NCBI GenBank assembly: GCA_029008005.1
Contig: JAQXIX010000020.1
Coordinates: forward strand, 1 to 56,281
DNA: 56,281 nt
DNA from: Bacillota bacterium
GTDB lineage: Bacteria > Bacillota > Clostridia > Peptostreptococcales > Anaerovoracaceae
Direction of reading: 5' to 3'
In this document: positions 130-9,161 of the stretch, piece by piece
Layout of the letters: the number at the start of each line of letters is the position of its first letter
Position numbering within the stretch: position 1 is the first letter of the stretch
Notes under the pieces: model-generated
Database searches by the model: none
Seen by the model: only the letters and a program-made list of their open reading frames with translations
Told to the model about the DNA's origin: nothing
Made by a program: the position numbers and the translations under genes

Positions 130-561
130 ATGGCTAACAGTATTAAGCTTGAAATAATGACCCCTTCGAAGAGATTTTACAGAGGGGATGTGGATCTTGT
201 TATCGTGACCACCCTCGAAGGAGACGAGGGTTTCATGGCAGGGCACATGTGGGCATGCAAGCTTCTGGAGGTTGGAGAACTTTGGATTCAGGAGCATGGC
301 GCCGGTCCGGACGAATGGAGAGTTGCGGCAGTTGCCGGAGGCTTCATTGAAGTCAAGGACAGTATTGTAATATATACCGATGCCGTGGAGTGGTCCGAAG
401 ATATTGATATGGAGCGAGTTCTGAGTGAGAAAGCAAAGGCTGAAGACTGGCTCGTTCACAATGAAGGCACAGCCAGTGAAAAGGATATTAAGCTGGCGAA
501 GATTGCCATTGCCAAAGCCGAAACAAGAAGTAATGTTGCCGAGGGTGGCAAGAGGCATTAA
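130..561 (+). CDS. atpC: ATP synthase F1 subunit epsilon
   Basis: 143 codons, the usual length for the family. The epsilon subunit sits on the rotor stalk and couples F1 to Fo while restraining ATP hydrolysis. The N-terminal beta-sandwich begins with KLEIMTPSKRFYRGDVD, and the AVAGGFIEVKDSIVIYTDAVE stretch is the recognisable family core. A helical C-terminal part (about residues 90-143) rich in Lys, Glu and Ala fits the regulatory helices. The usual G-x-L-P-G-H-A segment is replaced by GFMAGHMWACKLLEV, a mild divergence. It follows atpD by two bases and is the last gene of the ATP operon, since a strong terminator follows. Confidence 0.93.
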   Translation: MANSIKLEIMTPSKRFYRGDVDLVIVTTLEGDEGFMAGHMWACKLLEVGELWIQEHGAGPDEWRVAAVAGGFIEVKDSIVIYTDAVEWSEDIDMERVLSEKAKAEDWLVHNEGTASEKDIKLAKIAIAKAETRSNVAEGGKRH

Positions 562-623: not shown

Positions 624-1556
624 TTAAATATTAATTGTGCCTTTCGCCAGTATTGCCGCGGAGCCTCCGATGCGTATTGAAACTTCATCTCCGTCAAGAG
701 CGGATACAGAAGATATTCTTGAAGGCCTGTTCATGGCTTCGCCCTGAATAAAGGAAGCTTCCCCCGGTTCAATAAGCTTGTTTTTAATAAGATAAAATGT
801 AAGTGCGCCGTTGGCTGTTCCCGTGGCGGCTTCTTCATCAATATCATAAAGAGGTGCGAAGTTTCTGCAGAAAGCAGCAGCCGTGCCGGATCCCATGTTT
901 CCTGTACCGCAGACAGTATCGGATGCGCAGGAGCAGTCTAAAGTCCCGCCCTCCAGAGTGAAGGCGTGAACGCCTGTTACGGAATACTTTTCCGAAAGCC
1001 TGGATAAAGCCGGGAAATCAGGACTGATTGCTTCGAGATCGTCGCGAGTTGCGACAGGCATAATAATATCCGGGAGACCGGTGGATATTATTTGAGGAAG
1101 CATACCGTGAGGTTTCACTCCATCAGCAGATAATCCCATGATAGAGTACAGCTCCTCAAGCTTGTCCGGCTCACTTATTTCCCCGCAATACTCCGGTTTG
1201 GCCATGTCCATAAAAACATTGTCATCTCCGATACTGATATGGAGCTCCCCGGCTGCCGTTATATTAATGCATGTATCTCCGGCAGAAATGTATCCGGCGT
1301 CCTTGAGACAGCAAAAGGCCGCGATAGTCGCGTGACCGCAAAGATCCACTTCCGCAGCAGGAGTGAAATACCTGATGTTGAATGTATCATCGGAAAGGGG
1401 TTTGATAAAAGCCGTTTCCGAATAACGCAGTTCTGCGGCTGTCTGGCGCATGACTTCATCTGCAGGAAAGTCGGAATCCTTATCGAGAATTACAACTCCG
1501 GCGGGATTGCCGCAAAAGAGATCTTTTGCAAAGGCGTCTGCAATATAAAATTTCAT
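624..1556 (-). CDS. PhzF family isomerase-like protein
   Basis: About 310 residues, normal for the PhzF / YddE family of cofactor-free isomerases with a diaminopimelate-epimerase-like two-lobed fold. Visible signatures are an N-terminal FCGNPAGVV, the RYSETAF segment carrying the catalytic-type Glu, FTPAAEVDLCGHATIAA, and a C-terminal EEAATGTANGALTFYL. The frame extends to a GTG at 1565, but the ATG at 1554-1556 is preferred because GAGGTGA on the minus strand lies about five bases before it. The gene is convergent with atpC. The substrate cannot be inferred from the neighbours. Confidence 0.85.
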   Translation of the reverse strand: MKFYIADAFAKDLFCGNPAGVVILDKDSDFPADEVMRQTAAELRYSETAFIKPLSDDTFNIRYFTPAAEVDLCGHATIAAFCCLKDAGYISAGDTCINITAAGELHISIGDDNVFMDMAKPEYCGEISEPDKLEELYSIMGLSADGVKPHGMLPQIISTGLPDIIMPVATRDDLEAISPDFPALSRLSEKYSVTGVHAFTLEGGTLDCSCASDTVCGTGNMGSGTAAAFCRNFAPLYDIDEEAATGTANGALTFYLIKNKLIEPGEASFIQGEAMNRPSRISSVSALDGDEVSIRIGGSAAILAKGTINI

Positions 1557-1666
1557 GATTCTCACCTCGGATCATTAGTATTCTTTGAGTTAAATCATAT
1601 CACAAATAATATAAAAAAGGTATAATTAAGAAAAGTGTATTTAGCAGGAGGTATAGAGGGATTAAA

Positions 1667-3040
1667 ATGAAAAAAATAATAGTGTGTGCAGTAAGTCTGG
1701 CTGTTTTGGCGGGGGTTTACTGGGCGGAAGTAACGGGGATACTTACAGACAGAGCTTTTCACGGGCTGGAGCTTTTGCTTATTCTGCCGGCAGTTCTGGT
1801 TGCCGGGCATCGAGAGGCGGCACCGGATGAACAGCTTGAAACATTTACGGAGAAAAAGGAAAAGAGAACAAAAGACTACGTACATATTGCTGTTGCATCG
1901 GCTGCAATACTCTCGGCGGCCATATGGTGGGGTCTGTTGGGAAACATGTACAATGGTTTTCTGGCGGCAGCATCAATTGCTGTTGCGGTTCCCGGAGATG
2001 CCTTCGCAATTGCAGTTCGAGAACCTCTTGCGGCCGGCACGAAAAATTGCAGAATGCAGGGGATTGTTATCAGGGACAGTCGGATACTGGAAAGCGCATG
2101 GGAAATAGATGAAGTAGTCATGAACAAACTGGGGACAATAACTGCGGGGGAACCGGTGATTACAGATATAGTTCCTGTCAGAGAAGGGTTTGATCTTAGA
2201 CTTGCGGCAGGCATTGAAGCGGGATCCAAACATCCTCTCGGGCAGGCGATTGTCAACGCGGCGCTGGAACAGCCGGGAACACTTGAGGTTTTTGAGAAAT
2301 TCAGAGAGATTCCGGGAAGAGGTATTCATGCAAAAGCAGGAGACACTGTTTATCTGGCAGGCAACCGAATGTTTATGAATGAATGCAGTGTAACGGGAGA
2401 TTTCGGCAGAGGATACGGACTGGCTAAAGAAGGTAAGACGGTCGTATATTTCGCTTGTGCCGGAATCCTTGTTGGGATTATAGCGTTGAGAGACAGCCCG
2501 AGAACATCAAGTCTGCGTGCCGTAAGAATGATGGAAAACATGGGAATAGATGTGACAATGCTTACGGGAGACAGTGCCGGTACTGCAGATGCAGTGAGAC
2601 GCGAAGTGGGAATAGACCGGGTTATTGCCCAGATGCGTCCTGAAGAAAAGGGACAGATAATAGAACGCCTGAGAGAAGGCGGCAGTCGAAAAATCGCAAT
2701 GGTGGGTTATGACGACAGTGATGCCGAGGCTGTACAAAGAGCAGATTTAAGTTTCGTAATGAGTACCGGATGCAGAAAAGTCCTCTCGTCATATGATGTT
2801 TTTCTCGAAAGCGGCGATTTGTGTGATGTTGCGAGAGTAATACAGGCGAGCAGGCGAGTAGTATCGGGAATAAGTCAGAACATTGCACTGACAGTTTGCC
2901 TGACGGTAATAGGAACAGTTTTAGCCTCAGGGGCAGCGTTTCCGGTTCTGGGAATCATGATACACCCTGTATTGTTCGTGATATATGCGAGTACAATGAG
3001 GATTGTTATACAATTAACAAGTCAAAAGTCTCAAAAATGA
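1667..3040 (+). CDS. Degenerate P1B-like P-type ATPase lacking the phosphorylated Asp
   Basis: 457 residues whose order matches the C-terminal two thirds of a heavy-metal P-type ATPase. There are membrane segments near residues 5-20, 35-48, 72-92 and 97-117, a nucleotide-binding region with the conserved H189-P190 (GSKHPLGQAI), a TGDS segment, and two C-terminal membrane segments. The catalytic parts are altered. DKTGT reads MNKLGTITAG, so the phosphorylated Asp is Asn153 (codon aac at 2123-2125). GDGIND reads G347-Y-D-D-S-D352. The CPC transport motif is absent (AVAVPGDAFAIAV). The frame is intact and long, so this is not simple decay. It is probably not a pump. A regulatory, binding or scaffold role is an inference. 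A GAGGG site lies about six bases before the ATG. Confidence 0.8.
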   Translation: MKKIIVCAVSLAVLAGVYWAEVTGILTDRAFHGLELLLILPAVLVAGHREAAPDEQLETFTEKKEKRTKDYVHIAVASAAILSAAIWWGLLGNMYNGFLAAASIAVAVPGDAFAIAVREPLAAGTKNCRMQGIVIRDSRILESAWEIDEVVMNKLGTITAGEPVITDIVPVREGFDLRLAAGIEAGSKHPLGQAIVNAALEQPGTLEVFEKFREIPGRGIHAKAGDTVYLAGNRMFMNECSVTGDFGRGYGLAKEGKTVVYFACAGILVGIIALRDSPRTSSLRAVRMMENMGIDVTMLTGDSAGTADAVRREVGIDRVIAQMRPEEKGQIIERLREGGSRKIAMVGYDDSDAEAVQRADLSFVMSTGCRKVLSSYDVFLESGDLCDVARVIQASRRVVSGISQNIALTVCLTVIGTVLASGAAFPVLGIMIHPVLFVIYASTMRIVIQLTSQKSQK

Positions 3041-3069
3041 TACGATTTTTGAAGGAAATTTCAAATTTA

Positions 3070-3091
3070 AAACGTTGAAATTTCAACGTTT
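3070..3091. repeat. 22-bp perfect palindrome
   Basis: A perfect inverted repeat centred at 3080/3081 with core CGTTGAAATTTCAACG, lying 29 bases after the ATPase gene. The inner 14 bases (GTTGAAATTTCAAC) recur exactly at 25960-25973. It could be an operator or a weak terminator, but no long T run follows. Confidence 0.6.
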
Positions 3092-3171
3092 CTTCGACAT
3101 AGCAGCAAAATCCTATTAAAATATCAGAAAATTACAGCATATTTATCATTCATTAAAATGCAACTGTAGGC

Positions 3172-3177
3172 TATAAT
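3172..3177 (+). promoter_or_regulatory. Possible -10 element before the aminotransferase
   Basis: TATAAT stands 98 bases before the start at 3276, with only a poor -35 match (TTCATT at 3149-3154). The leader after it holds two small inverted repeats, GGCA...TGCC (3182-3202) and GTTGC...GCAAC near 3219-3235. No known riboswitch was recognised. Confidence 0.35.
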
Positions 3178-3275
3178 TGTGGCATAGGCATATGGTGTGC
3201 CGAAAGTTATACCGATGTTGCTGATAGAGCAACGATAATAAGTACATTTTTTCAAACTAAAGGGAGGTCAATAAA

Positions 3276-4664
3276 ATGACTGAAAGAAACATGACAAAGG
3301 CTTTGGAAGAAGCTAAAAGAGTTGTTGGCATGATCGAAGCTGAAACGCTGACAGATGCTGAGAAAAAAGCAATTCATGACGATTCAATCAAAAACTTTAA
3401 TGAAAATGTAAACCCTGGTTGGCTTGAATACAGAAAGTCTGTATCAACTGACGCTGCTTTCGTAGAATGGGAAGATGAAGGCGACGTATTCAGAGATCTG
3501 AACAACACTGAATTCATCGACTGCTTAGGCGGATTCGGAATCTTCGCTTGCGGACACGGAAACCCAGAAATCAGAAAGACTGTACAGGCTCAGCTGAACA
3601 GATATGCACTCCACTCACAGGAACTGGTAGACCCACTCAGAGGATACCTTGCTAACCTGCTCGGAATGATCACTCCTGGAGATCTGCAGTACTGCTTCTT
3701 CTGCAACGGTGGTGCAGAAGCTGTAGAAATGGCTCTGAAGCTGGCTAGACTGGCAACAGGCGGCAGATGGTACATCTCAACAACAGGTGCTTTCCACGGT
3801 AAGTCAATGGGCGCTATCTCAATGGGCGGTAAGGCTGCTTACAGAGAAGACTACATCCCTATGATTCAGCAGGTTCAGCACGTTAAGTATGGTGATGCTG
3901 ATGCAGCTAGAACAGCAGTAGAAAACCTGATCACAGTTGGTGAAAAGGTTGCAGCTATCATCGTAGAACCTATCCAGGGTGAAGCTGGTGTTATCATTCC
4001 ACCGGAAGGATACCTCAAGGCTCTGAGAGAGATCTGTGACGAACACGGCATCTGCCTGATCTTCGACGAAATCCAGACTGGTCTTGGACGTACTGGTACA
4101 ATGTGGAGATGTGACTACGAAGGAGTTACTCCTGATATCATGACTTATGGTAAGGCTTCATCAGGTGGTCTGGTACCTATCACTGGTATCATTGCTAGAC
4201 CTTGGACTTATGAAAAGTCAGGCGTTGGCACAGGCGTAGAAGGAAAGATGTTCGACAATCCATGGATTCTCGGATCACCTACATTCGGCGGAAACCCTCT
4301 CGCTTGCTCAGCATTCATCTCAACTATCAGATACATGCTTGAAAACGATATCCCTGGACAGTCAAAGGCTAAGGGCGACTACTATCTGGAAGGCCTGAAG
4401 AAGCTGCAGGAAAAGTATCCTACAGTTCTTACAGCATTCAGAGGAGCAGGAATGCTCATCTGCATGGAATTCCCAGAAGCAGAAGTTGGCTACAATGTAA
4501 CTAAGGAACTGTTTGCTCAGCACGTAATGACAGCAGGTACTCTGGTTAACGCTAAGACAGTAAGAATCGAGCCACCTATCACTCAGGCTTACGAAACAAT
4601 CGATAAGGTTCTGGCTGCTCTGGACGTAGCACTTGCTAAGACTAAGGAAGCGTTCAACCTGTAA
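3276..4664 (+). CDS. Putrescine-type class III aminotransferase
   Basis: 462 residues with close resemblance to E. coli putrescine aminotransferase (PatA/YgjG) along the whole length. Shared blocks include NPGWLEYRKSV, FIDCLGGFGIF, LHSQELVDPLR, FCNGGAEAVE, TGAFHGKS, VEPIQGEAGVI and KTVRIEPPIT. The PLP lysine is K293 in TYGKASSGG. The expected reaction moves the terminal amino group of putrescine (or a related diamine such as cadaverine) to 2-oxoglutarate in the cytoplasm. The substrate is inferred, because ornithine or other omega-amino substrates occur in the family. The start follows GGGAGG. Codon use is strongly biased like the ribosomal genes, suggesting high expression. The gene is monocistronic, ended by a strong terminator. 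Confidence 0.87.
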   Translation: MTERNMTKALEEAKRVVGMIEAETLTDAEKKAIHDDSIKNFNENVNPGWLEYRKSVSTDAAFVEWEDEGDVFRDLNNTEFIDCLGGFGIFACGHGNPEIRKTVQAQLNRYALHSQELVDPLRGYLANLLGMITPGDLQYCFFCNGGAEAVEMALKLARLATGGRWYISTTGAFHGKSMGAISMGGKAAYREDYIPMIQQVQHVKYGDADAARTAVENLITVGEKVAAIIVEPIQGEAGVIIPPEGYLKALREICDEHGICLIFDEIQTGLGRTGTMWRCDYEGVTPDIMTYGKASSGGLVPITGIIARPWTYEKSGVGTGVEGKMFDNPWILGSPTFGGNPLACSAFISTIRYMLENDIPGQSKAKGDYYLEGLKKLQEKYPTVLTAFRGAGMLICMEFPEAEVGYNVTKELFAQHVMTAGTLVNAKTVRIEPPITQAYETIDKVLAALDVALAKTKEAFNL

Positions 4665-4696
4665 GAAGAATTTAACAGCATTGATTTGCTAAGATT

Positions 4697-4724
4697 AACC
4701 CCCGCTTTTCAAAGCGGGGGTTTT
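4697..4724 (+). terminator. Rho-independent terminator after the aminotransferase
   Basis: A 12-bp stem, AACCCCCGCTTT (4697-4708) with AAAGCGGGGGTT (4711-4722), around a two-base centre and followed by TT. Very GC-rich and strong. Confidence 0.93.
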
Positions 4725-4754
4725 ATATATTTTGAAAAAATAAATGAAATATAC

Positions 4755-4783
4755 TGGACGACATATATCCACTATGATATAAT
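4755..4783 (+). promoter_or_regulatory. Promoter of the rubredoxin gene
   Basis: TGGACG (4755-4760), a 17-base spacer and TATAAT (4778-4783), about 58 bases before the rubredoxin start. A good sigma-A type match. Confidence 0.7.
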
Positions 4784-4840
4784 GTAGTCACGATAAAGTA
4801 ATAAATAAATTCTGATAAAAAAATCTTAGGAGGTAAGATT

Positions 4841-5011
4841 ATGAACGAAAAGAAATACGGTTGCAAAGCTTGTGATTATGTATATGACCCTAAAATCGGA
4901 GATCGTGAAGGTGCAATCGCTCCAGGCGTAGCATTTGAGGATCTGCCGGAAGATTGGATTTGCCCACTTTGCGGAGTAGGTAAGGAATACTTCGAACCGG
5001 TTGAAGAATAA
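4841..5011 (+). CDS. Rubredoxin
   Basis: A 56-residue iron protein beginning [17 protein letters not shown]. The two CxxC knuckles that bind a single iron are C-K-A-C near residues 8-11 and C-P-L-C near 41-44 ([16 protein letters not shown]). The Gly, Pro and Trp positions of the family are present. It is a cytoplasmic one-electron carrier that in anaerobes feeds flavodiiron proteins and peroxide or superoxide reductases. The flavodiiron protein at 7362 is an obvious candidate partner, although it carries its own rubredoxin domain. AGGAGG at 4828-4833 sits seven bases before the ATG. It is a single-gene unit with its own promoter and terminator. Confidence 0.95.
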
Positions 5012-5031
5012 TTATCGAGAAATAATCAGAG

Positions 5032-5061
5032 AAGCGGCTGGATGATACAGCCGCTTTTTTA
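5032..5061 (+). terminator. Rho-independent terminator after rubredoxin
   Basis: A 9-bp stem, AAGCGGCTG (5032-5040) with CAGCCGCTT (5048-5056), followed by a T run. Confidence 0.92.
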
Positions 5062-5062
5062 C

Positions 5063-5091
5063 TTTAAAGCCCGGTAGGTGTATGATATAAT
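5063..5091 (+). promoter_or_regulatory. Probable promoter of the lipoprotein gene
   Basis: TATAAT at 5086-5091 with a weak TTTAAA at 5063-5068 (17-base spacer), 24 bases before the ATG at 5115. The TAGGAGG site falls between. Confidence 0.5.
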
Positions 5092-5114
5092 CAAGCCGTG
5101 TAGGAGGTAACAAG

Positions 5115-5783
5115 ATGAAAAAGAAACTTAAAGCTTTTGCCGCTTTAGCGGCAACATTAGTTATGGTTATATCATTTTCGGGATGTGGAGACTTTGATGC
5201 TGCAACATATGTAGAAGGTACTCTCGATGCATGTAAGACAGGTACTGTAAGTGATGAGCTGGCAGATATTTCCGCGGAGTCAAAGGAAGAAATTCAGGAA
5301 GATATCGATGAAATTTATTCGACAATGGCTGACGAAATGATTGATGTTTTTGGCGATGAATGCGTGACGGACAAGACTGAAAGCCTTTGCGAAGAGTACT
5401 CAAAGGCTTTCATGAACACTATGAAATATGAAGTTTCCGATGATTGTGAAGAGAAAGACGGCACATATCATGTCAAGGTTACGGCATATCCTCTGGATTT
5501 AAGCGAGTTTATGGATCATATGGGTGGCGATTTCCGTAACCAGTGGACTGAAAAAGTAGCGGGATATTCAACTCAGGATGAATTCCTTTCGGCATTTTAT
5601 GAGGCATATATGCAGGAATTTGTAGACTATCTCAAAGATACGGAAAACCTCAAGTACGGAGAATCACAAGAGTATACTGTTAAGGTGTCCGAGGATAAAG
5701 ACGGATATTATGAGATGGACGAAGAAGATCTTACAAATCTGCTCGGTGCATTGTTTGCAGAAGATCAGCTCCCTGAAGAATAG
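5115..5783 (+). CDS. Secreted acidic lipoprotein of unknown function
   Basis: 222 residues. A positively charged start (MKKKLKAF), a hydrophobic stretch and the lipobox SFSGC (Cys24) mark a lipoprotein signal, so the mature protein should be anchored to the outer face of the membrane. The remainder is strongly acidic and probably helical (ESKEEIQEDIDEIYSTMADE), with two further Cys residues near 95-110 and no enzymatic motif I recognise. It resembles small clostridial lipoproteins of unknown role, but I cannot name a family. AGGAGG lies nine bases before the start. The terminator at 5969 is the first one downstream. Confidence 0.75.
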   Translation: MKKKLKAFAALAATLVMVISFSGCGDFDAATYVEGTLDACKTGTVSDELADISAESKEEIQEDIDEIYSTMADEMIDVFGDECVTDKTESLCEEYSKAFMNTMKYEVSDDCEEKDGTYHVKVTAYPLDLSEFMDHMGGDFRNQWTEKVAGYSTQDEFLSAFYEAYMQEFVDYLKDTENLKYGESQEYTVKVSEDKDGYYEMDEEDLTNLLGALFAEDQLPEE

Positions 5784-6027: not shown

Positions 6028-6801
6028 ATGGCATATAGAGTTAAACTTAATGTCTTCGAAGGACCCTTTGACCTGCTCGTGTATCTTATCGAGAAGGCTG
6101 AAATGAGCATCTATGACATTAAGATTGCAGAAATCACAAAACAGTATATGGAGTATGTTGAGGATCTGCGCTCTGAGGATATTGCTGTATCTTCAGAGTT
6201 CATGGTGCTGGCGGCAGAGCTTCTGGAAATTAAATCGAAGATGCTTCTTCCACGGACAAATCCCGAAGAAATTACAGCGGGAGTTTACGAGGATCCGAGA
6301 ACGGAACTTGTGGAAAAACTTCGCGAATACAAGAAATACAAGTCCGTGTCGGAGATGCTCGAAAAGGCAAGAGAAGAAACGGCAAGAAGTATTGAGAAGC
6401 CCCAGGAAGATCTGGCGGAATATACGGGAGAACCTGACGAATATCTGTGTCTGGACATAGAAGACTTCAAGAACGCCTTTGAGGCTTTCCTGCAGAAAAA
6501 AAAGAAACTTGAGGAGATTCGCGCCCATCACATCAGGAGCGAGAAGCAGAGAATCACAACAGAAATACGAATGGGCGATATACGTGATTATTTCAAAGGC
6601 TCTAAAATTCGCGAAACGGATTTCAGAGAGCTCGTTAAAGATGAAAACAACAAGTACGATGTGTCGGTAACATTCTCATCTGTTCTGGAAATGATGAAGT
6701 CTCATGAGCTTGACGCGGAACAGAAGAGAATATTCGGAGATATTACGGTTAAGGCACAGAAAGAATTATATGAAGAAACAGAGAATCAAATCAGCAATTG
6801 A
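6028..6801 (+). CDS. scpA: Segregation and condensation protein A
   Basis: 257 residues, the normal length. It starts VKLNVFEGPFDLLVYLIEKAEMSIYDI, the family N-terminal signature. ScpA is the kleisin of the bacterial SMC condensin: its N-terminal domain contacts the SMC neck and its C-terminal winged helix (about residues 185-250) contacts the other SMC head. The middle is charged and helical and would carry the ScpB-binding region. AAGGAGG lies about seven bases before the ATG. scpB overlaps the end by 32 bases, giving translational coupling and supporting a shared complex. Confidence 0.95.
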   Translation: MAYRVKLNVFEGPFDLLVYLIEKAEMSIYDIKIAEITKQYMEYVEDLRSEDIAVSSEFMVLAAELLEIKSKMLLPRTNPEEITAGVYEDPRTELVEKLREYKKYKSVSEMLEKAREETARSIEKPQEDLAEYTGEPDEYLCLDIEDFKNAFEAFLQKKKKLEEIRAHHIRSEKQRITTEIRMGDIRDYFKGSKIRETDFRELVKDENNKYDVSVTFSSVLEMMKSHELDAEQKRIFGDITVKAQKELYEETENQISN

Positions 6802-7372
6802 ATCAATGATGTTCGTCTGGGGGCAACCTCTTGATGTGAAGGATGTTGCAAACATTTTCAATGAGGATAAAATGGAAATCTACAGCCTTTGCAAAGAGCT
6901 TCAGGAGGAATACGAACAGGAAGGCAGAGGCATCGTTATTCGCGAAGTGAATAAGAGCTTTCAGTTTGTGACGAGAAAAGAAAATATAGACTATATAGAG
7001 AGACTCTGCACACCGGTGAAGAAAAAGAAACTTTCTCAATCGGCGCTGGAGACGCTGGCTATAGTGGCGTACAGGCAGCCGGTTACGAAAGGCGAAATCG
7101 AAAGCATCAGAGGAATCAGATGTGACAGGGTGATTGACGGACTTATGGAAAAAGGTCTTGTAGCCGATGTCGGCAGAGCAGATACGGTAGGGAGGCCTAT
7201 TCTGTACGGAACGACAGATGAATTTCTGAAACAATTTGGTTTTACAAGTTTAAAAGAGTTGCCTGAGATAGGTGATTTTGGATTAATAGAAGCAGAAGAA
7301 AAAGAAAGAGAAGCCTTGGAAGGGCAGATTTCCATGGCAGAAATCAGGAAGGGAGACGTAAATGATAACTAA
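6770..7372 (+). CDS. scpB: Segregation and condensation protein B
   Basis: 200 residues from the ATG at 6770 (KKQRIKSAIESMMFVWGQPL), the usual length. The frame is open further back to 6704, but that would place 22 extra residues deep inside scpA with no family match. ScpB is a dimer of tandem winged-helix domains that binds the ScpA kleisin in the SMC complex. Typical blocks are SALETLAIVAYRQPVTKGEIE, IRGIRCDRVIDGLMEKGLV and GRPILYGTTDEFLKQFGF. No good ribosome binding site precedes it, consistent with coupling to scpA. Its end overlaps fprA by 11 bases. Confidence 0.94.
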   Translation: MKKQRIKSAIESMMFVWGQPLDVKDVANIFNEDKMEIYSLCKELQEEYEQEGRGIVIREVNKSFQFVTRKENIDYIERLCTPVKKKKLSQSALETLAIVAYRQPVTKGEIESIRGIRCDRVIDGLMEKGLVADVGRADTVGRPILYGTTDEFLKQFGFTSLKELPEIGDFGLIEAEEKEREALEGQISMAEIRKGDVNDN

Positions 7373-9161
7373 AGTAACAGACTCAGTAATCTATGTCGGA
7401 GCAAATGACCACGACGTTGATCTTTTCGAGGGACAGTATGTTGTTCCAAATGGAATGGCATATAACTCATATGTGATCAACGACGAAAAGATCGCCGTAA
7501 TGGACACGATTGACAGAAAGAAAACCGACGAATGGCTCGAAAATCTCGAGGGAGCTTTCGAAGGAAGAATGCCGGATTATCTGGTTGTGCAGCACATGGA
7601 GCCTGACCACTCGGCATCAATTGCGGCCTTTGTTGAGAAGTACCCGGAAGCTACAGTTGTAGCAAACAAGAAAACCATTAAGATGATCGGACAGTTCTTC
7701 CCGGGACTTGAAATCAAAAGCGTGCTGGAAGTTGAGAACGGAGACACACTTGAACTGGGAAGCCATACGCTGACATTCGTATTCGCCCCTATGGTGCATT
7801 GGCCGGAAGTTATGATGACATACGAATCATCAGAGAAGATTCTCTTCTCGGCTGACGGATTCGGTAAATTCGGCGCTCTTGACGCTGACGAAGACTGGGC
7901 TTGTGAAGCAAGAAGATATTACATCGGTATCGTAGGTAAATACGGACCTCAGGTACAGACAGTTCTCAAGAAGGCAGCAGGCCTCGATATTGAAAAAATC
8001 TGTCCTCTCCACGGCCCGATTCTTACAGAAGACCTGGGATATTACATCCACCTGTATGATCTCTGGTCAGGATATGTTCCTGAAACCGAAGGCGTTTGCA
8101 TCTGCTACACTTCCGTATACGGAAACACTAAGAAAGCAGTTGAGATTCTTGCCGACAAGCTGGAAGGTGCCGGTGTTCCTAACGTAGTGGTTAACGACCT
8201 GGCAAGAGCCGACATGGCAGAATGCGTTGAAGATGCTTTCAGATACGACACTCTCGTTCTGGCAACTACAACATATAACGGAGAAATGTTCCCGTTCATG
8301 AAGCAGTTTATCGATCACCTGACAGAAAGAAACTTCCAGAAGAGAAGAGTTGCTTTCATCGAAAACGGATCATGGGGTCCTGTTGCCGGCAGAATGATGA
8401 AGAAGTGCTTCGAGAAGTCAAAGGAACTGAGATTCGCAGAAAACGATGTAACAATTCTCTCTGCTCTTAATGACGAGTCAATGGCACAGCTTGATGCACT
8501 GGCTGAAGAACTGGTTGCAGACTATGTTCCTATAGATGTGACTGACGTTAAACTTGATCCGACGGCACTCTACAAAATCGGATACGGACTTTACGTTGTA
8601 ACATGCAATGACGGAAAGAAGAACAACGGACTTATCGTAAATACTGTATCACAGGTAAGCAGCAATCCGAACAGAGTTGCCGTTAACATCAACAAGGCAA
8701 ACTACTCATGCGAAGTAATAAAAAATACGGGCGTTCTCAACGTATCAACGCTTAATGAGACCGCACCGTTCCAGACATTCGAACATTTCGGATTCCAGTC
8801 AGGAAGAAATGTTGATAAATTCGATAAAGATGTGTTCGGACACTGGGAGAAGTCATCAAACGGTCTGCCGTACCTGAACAGATATGCCAATGCATACATT
8901 TCACTTAAGGTATTCGACACAGTTGACCTGGGAAGCCACATCATGTTCCTCTGCGACATTACAGAATCACAGGTTATCAACAATGTGGATACGATGACAT
9001 ACACATATTATCAGAACAACGTTAAGCCGAAGCCGGTTGAAGATGTTAAGGGCTGGGTATGTGACATCTGCGGATACATTCATGCAGACGAAAAGCTGCC
9101 TGAAGATTTCATCTGCCCACTCTGTAAGCACGGTGCTTCAGACTTCACATACATGGAGTAG
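7362..9161 (+). CDS. Flavodiiron protein with flavin reductase-like and rubredoxin domains
   Basis: 599 residues in four parts. About 1-245 is a metallo-beta-lactamase-like diiron domain with H78-x-E80-x-D82-H83 ([12 protein letters not shown]), MVHWPE, FSADGFG and CPLHGP. About 250-395 is an FMN-binding flavodoxin domain ([11 protein letters not shown]). About 400-545 is a flavin-reductase-like domain. About 548-599 is a rubredoxin domain with CDIC and CPLC. Such enzymes reduce O2 to water, or NO to N2O, and protect anaerobes. The fused domains supply electrons internally. It overlaps scpB by 11 bases and uses codons typical of abundant proteins. A separate name such as fprA is a family usage, so the symbol is left empty. 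Confidence 0.93.

Follow-up and report, generated by a model that had tools for sequence, protein, structure and literature searches.

An intact P-type ATPase-like gene of a Bacillota bacterium (family Anaerovoracaceae; assembly GCA_029008005.1) encodes a protein that has lost the phosphorylatable aspartate, the dephosphorylation domain and the copper site of the pump from which it descends, and comparison with its relatives leads us to favour, with moderate confidence, the reading that this gut bacterium keeps it as a membrane-anchored, nucleotide-binding pseudo-pump, a regulator that would act via a partner. The gene lies at 1667..3040 on the forward strand of the window, by which we mean the whole 56,281-nucleotide stretch analysed (contig JAQXIX010000020.1), in a genome of 1.63 Mb that is 86% complete. 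Its 457-amino acid product is supported as coding by reading frame, codon usage and fold. Ribosome-binding-site-like AGGAGG and GAGG, read directly in the sequence, stand 5' of the ATG (1646..1659, +), preceded by a candidate sigma-70 promoter, ATCACA-16-TATAAT (1599..1626, +), that was found by consensus scan only, with 10 of 12 matches, in a region (1500–3350) where seven such sites were seen and 2.9 expected. Upstream are atpC, for the epsilon subunit of the F1 ATP synthase (130..561, +; TIGR01216 68.5 bits, cut-off 67.25, with eight other epsilon models below their own cut-offs), and a PhzF-family gene (624..1565, -; TIGR00654 165 bits, cut-off 76.2), and downstream is a class III aminotransferase of the putrescine type (3276..4664, +; PF00202; NF008570 627 bits, cut-off 612; TIGR03372 477.8 bits, under its cut-off of 658.65). 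An Rfam scan of the window gave no match.

Judged by its sequence, the protein is derived from a P1B-1 copper ATPase of the CopA type. It passes the profile for HAD-IC P-type ATPases (TIGR01494; 126.7 bits, cut-off 62.3) and scores under the cut-offs of the CopA-family profiles (TIGR01511, 163 of 397 bits; TIGR01525, 230.9 of 346.25 bits). The phosphorylation motif DKTGT reads NKLGT (residues 153–157; 2123..2137) and GDGIND reads GYDDSD (residues 347–352; 2705..2722), with T155, D348 and G349 altered, and motif test and alignment place PGD (residues 109–111; 1991..1999) where M4 should carry CPC. Helices M3–M4 are present by model and alignment (1844..2056), and the actuator (A) domain that belongs ahead of them is missing, with no PF00122 match, a gap in the alignment and no TGE; the HMA domain is absent as well. 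The M5 motif NX6YNX4P and the M6 motif MX2SSX5[NS] are the copper motifs of P1B-1 Cu+ ATPases, and both, present in all eight active rows, are gone from the M5–M6 helices of the window protein (2822..3034) by regular-expression tests and identity to active pumps. Since Asp, CPC, the C-terminal copper motifs, HMA and A domain are all lacking, the protein cannot go through the known pump cycle.

The fold of the P and N domains is present in the same protein (residues 129–397; 2051..2857), with the N domain apparently constrained and the P domain partly relaxed. Seven nucleotide-binding residues are kept at 2216..2365: the P1B-type set E184, H189, G217, G219, G232 and N233, whose roles toward the nucleotide we take to be those of the E, H, G, G and GN residues of ATP7B, and P190. 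The structure model places helices at residues 60–130 and retains the membrane helices, and residues 1–58 are poorly modelled. By its conserved N domain the protein is likely to bind nucleotide. An intact coding gene of this type with NKLGT, GYDDSD, no CPC and a kept HP motif had been described in an earlier note on this DNA, and each of these points was seen again here, including the open frame over 457 amino acids and the presence of H189 and P190. The loss of the actuator domain was overlooked in that note.

The closest known family, the P1B-1 copper-exporting ATPase CopA (TIGR01511; solved structures 3a1c–3a1e, 7r0g and 3rfu), differs from the window protein in having the phosphorylatable Asp, CPC, the M5 and M6 copper motifs, the A domain and HMA. 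The substitution itself has laboratory counterparts in SERCA D351N and Na,K-ATPase D369N, and Asp-to-Asn mutants of P-type ATPases form no phosphoenzyme and are trapped in an E1-like state, according to PMC13322241. Those are single changes in whole pumps, whereas the window gene is a natural, retained gene with further losses.

The place between the F1 ATP-synthase genes and the aminotransferase holds a P-ATPase in related genomes; of 71 named loci anchored on the aminotransferase, 17 showed a P-ATPase-like frame within the sequence available, sometimes not adjacent, and many contigs were too short for a verdict. At locus L034 the F1 alpha, beta, gamma and delta subunits were recognised over a cut-off and epsilon matched below it. 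Among species of the genus the locus holds a canonical pump, a long form with NK(T/R)GT, a short form without the A domain, or no P-ATPase. Canonical pumps with HMA, CPC and DKTGT (716–731 amino acids) are at the locus in L034, L035 and L043, two more (L039, L037) lie near the aminotransferase with intervening genes, and L041 is a fragment. The seven long forms (L012, L040, L042, L044, L046, L047 and L048; 625–736 amino acids) carry NPY or SPY in place of CPC, and six of them were seen at the locus, the contig of L042 ending before it becomes visible; genome G006 has a C-terminal fragment of such a gene that does not show the DKTGT region. By alignment, TGE is kept in four of six NKTGT rows (L048 not included) and reads TGV or TGA in the other two; the alignment was used because a regular expression for TGE is not a clean test of the A domain, its matches in L038, L042 and L047 falling outside the A-domain motif. 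The four short forms, read at the CPC and DKTGT positions, have SPC and DKTGT (L036), CPG and DKTGT (L038), FPE and DKRGT (L033) and PGD and NKLGT (the window). In L051 there is no P-ATPase between PhzF and an aminotransferase 99% identical to that of the window.

The window protein resembles the NK(T/R)GT forms in its Asp-to-Asn change, the loss of CPC and the copper motifs, the kept N-domain residues and, for six of the seven, the locus; it differs from them in that theirs is a clade of separate origin, with the A domain kept, a length of 625–736 amino acids and a membrane part conserved within the clade. With L033 (genome G029, isolate SUG847, also recorded as L111) it shares the lack of the A domain and CPC and a contrast between N domain and membrane part described below, but L033 keeps Asp in DKRGT and reads GDQVRD. 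Because seven other genomes also have NK(T/R)GT, with similar co-occurring losses, a sequencing or assembly error behind the Asn was rejected, and the gene is not a single degraded copy among DKTGT homologues.

A strict search for NKTGT, whose pattern misses NKLGT and NKRGT, matched in 10 of 296 family genomes, one match being a P-ATPase (G003), in a sample that covered 23 of the 49 genomes of the genus and two of the eight NKTGT-group genomes, namely G003 and G006, the latter fragmentary. The same search of 398 genomes of the phylum matched in 12, two of the matches being in P-ATPases (L214, L215); both were discarded as further cases since their NKTGT sits in the A domain. These searches suggest that NKTGT P-ATPases are rare outside the genus.

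Several observations at these loci stand apart. L036 (7401–8939, +) and L038 (7324–9021, +) have lost HMA and most of the A domain and kept DKTGT, so that they might still be phosphorylated but have no TGE loop to release the phosphate. At L048 a 787-amino acid open frame (3224–5587, -) lies antisense to the NKTGT gene of genome G001, probably a by-product of codon bias. One assembly, G044, carries the same NKTGT gene twice with equal scores (L044 on contig C23, L045 on C34), perhaps as an assembly duplicate.

The gene tree, the AU test and the RpoB grouping together indicate that Asp has been lost at least twice. The seven long forms make one clade (100/99) in the gene tree, where the window protein pairs with L033 (100/99), a pairing flagged for long-branch attraction, for which RpoB gives separate support by grouping the window genome with G029 (99/100) apart from the N-form species. 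RpoB also groups the N-form species (99/99) in seven rows, six of the seven long-form species and the fragmentary G006; the G001 fragment, covering 30% of columns, falls outside on a long branch, RpoB was not found in three of the 29 genomes searched (G018, G028, G050), and G037 and G026, with fragments only, were left out. We rely on RpoB because the aminotransferase tree is weakly supported and does not recover the NKTGT clade. In an AU test set up after the gene tree was seen, forcing the window protein into the N clade cost 25.6 log units (p-AU 0.0013) and forcing the four short forms together cost 7.9 (p-AU 0.028). Gene tree and AU test reject a shared origin of Asn153 and the Asn of the NKTGT clade, and Tyr348 is private to the window protein, so that conservation of these two residues within a clade, as contemplated in the earlier note, did not hold. 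As its sister L033 keeps DKRGT, the window lineage most likely lost Asp after the two lineages split. Between the window and L033 the aminotransferases (3276–4664 and 6081–7469) are 98% identical with dS 0.32, and the neighbouring PhzF, ScpA and FprA are 72%, 77% and 86% identical, dS being saturated for PhzF and ScpA; the near-identity of the aminotransferases points to a very strong constraint on codons or to a recent transfer.

Eleven non-canonical proteins were compared: the window protein, the three other short forms (L033, L036 and L038) and the seven long forms. E184, H189, P190, G217, G219 and G232 are kept in all 11 and N233 in 10, the exception being Ser in L044, a residue also found in the active L049. 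The nucleophile Asp is absent from eight, being kept in L033, L036 and L038; CPC and the M5 motif are absent from all 11, and the M6 motif and the Asn of GDGxND from 10 each. No HMA CxxC was seen in any of the 11, L012 being cut at its 5' end.

Identities were also taken domain by domain. Any two of the five canonical pumps share 42–69% in the N domain (42–55% in the eight more distant of the 10 pairs), 64–91% in the second half of the P domain and 73–95% in M4 plus M5–M6, the N domain being less conserved than the membrane part in all 10 pairs (odds ratio 0.11–0.41). Against the same five, the window protein reverses this order, with 45–54% in the N domain, 44–51% in the second half of P and 23–27% in the membrane part, N above membrane in five of five comparisons (odds ratio 2.5–3.4). 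L033 has the same contrast with the active pumps (N 42–51%, membrane 21–25%), and window and L033 compared with each other are 54% identical in N, 63% in P and 19% in the membrane part (odds ratio 5.0); L036 and L038 are intermediate. The long forms have N at 38–44% and membrane at 32–43% to L034, to which the N domains of active pumps are 47–69% identical, and the pair L040–L044 follows the active-pair pattern (N 64%, P 83%, membrane 93%). On these alignments selection thus still keeps the N domain of the window protein as conserved as in active pumps, and the P domain less so, an argument strongest for the window and L033 because the N domain of the NKTGT clade falls below that level.

In pairwise codon models omega is 0.044 for the NKTGT pair L040–L044 (dS 2.5) and 0.042 for the active pair L034–L035 (dS 2.9), dS being saturated for most other P-ATPase pairs. 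For window and L033 the value of 0.024 is unreliable because dS is saturated; omega = 1 is rejected (2dlnL 111), a result that reflects their whole history. Between the two, dN is 0.62 in the P-ATPase, 0.14 in ScpA and 0.21 in PhzF. That a pseudo-P-ATPase is kept as a coding gene, as proposed before, is borne out by the seven further NK(T/R)GT proteins of the genus, the window N domain at active-pump identity and the low omega of the close NKTGT pair. A role in sensing, binding or partnering another ATPase, as offered with that proposal, may apply, binding of nucleotide being likely.

The most probable rival explanation, though we think it rather unlikely, is late decay, in which a pump redundant with a CopA elsewhere in the genome is being dismantled in the genus and the window gene is a recently freed remnant caught before any stop codon. 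It would be served by the graded series from full pump through L036 and L038, without A domain but with Asp, to DKRGT in L033, NKLGT in the window and absence in L051, by an intact CopA-like pump with CPC and DKTGT (L049) that the same genome carries on contig C25, and by the fast evolution and relaxed P domain of the window protein. Decay would be expected in all domains, however, and the window N domain, unlike the membrane part, stays at active-pump identity, which makes free decay unlikely; sister L033 has the same domain contrast. In a simulation of neutral drift by substitutions only, which favours decay by ignoring indels, 12% of runs kept an open frame at 0.05 substitutions per site and 2.2% did so at 0.1, capping any neutral period at roughly less than 0.1, and by a simple formula the chance that seven given residues had all changed is 1.4e-7 and 1.2e-5 at these distances. 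The residues that have gone therefore probably changed at a time when the frame was still protected.

Under the pseudo-pump reading that we prefer, the descendant of a CopA-type Cu+ ATPase has stopped pumping, having no phosphorylatable Asp, dephosphorylation domain or copper site, and the intact CopA-like L049 in the same genome would free it from copper export. Its N domain would bind ATP or another nucleotide against the P domain without hydrolysis, the protein would rest E1-like at the membrane, and a partner there, perhaps L049 itself or a component of the ATP synthase encoded next door, would read the nucleotide-occupied state; in the sister species group with the long NKTGT form a similar switch would have occurred as a separate event. 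Against this reading count the absence of any P-ATPase from L051, which indicates that the gene can be lost, as well as the fast evolution, the relaxed P domain and the NKTGT-clade N domain below active level. Tentatively, the copper pump of the atp locus may already have had a second, nucleotide-dependent non-pumping job, such as informing a partner of the ATP level, which was kept when pumping was dropped in at least two lineages, yielding convergent pseudo-P-type ATPases: one lineage would have changed Asp to Asn with the A domain kept, and the other would have lost the A domain and then Asp.

It is less probable still that the soluble part works without nucleotides, as a scaffold or metal buffer, and keeps the nucleotide-binding residues for the fold; three of them are glycines and one a proline, which could be structural, but E184 and H189 are kept in 19 of 19 rows, CPC is gone and no HMA CxxC is seen. 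Transport by a new route, with another substrate and phosphate acceptor, is very improbable despite the membrane helices retained in the model, as the motif has no phosphorylatable Asp, there is no A domain with TGE, and M4 and M5–M6 are unconstrained relative to active pumps.

P1B ATPases in four genomes of the genus have HMA, TGES, CPC, DKTGT and GDGIND intact and the nucleotide-binding N domain missing in frame: L059 (313–2223, +; genome G026, also recorded as L152), L151 (1449–3284, -), L155 (1606–3741, +) and L153 (1785–4019, -). Two resemble the atp-locus pump, L059 being at that locus, and two are of CopA type with a C-terminal HMA. The P-domain elements are preserved in the L151 model, in blocks mostly at 78–89 pLDDT with one at 62 and the whole model at 72. 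Such pumps, if real, could receive their phosphate from a source other than bound ATP, our guess being acetyl phosphate; a literature search found no paper on P-type ATPases that lack the N domain, nor on P-type ATPases and acetyl phosphate, and the four pumps may prove more surprising than the window pseudo-pump.

Dead enzymes retained for other work are familiar as pseudokinases and pseudophosphatases. The DKTGT motif is termed a signature or invariant in a review of 2023 (PMC10654040) and a study of 2024 (PMC10973460), and our literature search, whose coverage mostly excludes subscription journals, found no paper on natural P-type ATPase pseudoenzymes or NKTGT forms. If our reading is true, the gene would be a naturally retained dead pump of a kind that evolved repeatedly with its nucleotide domain still constrained, and would show that the half of a P-type pump that binds ATP can serve anew as a regulatory module, for which a single locus in a single genus, with intact, intermediate, dead and absent states, offers a ready test set.
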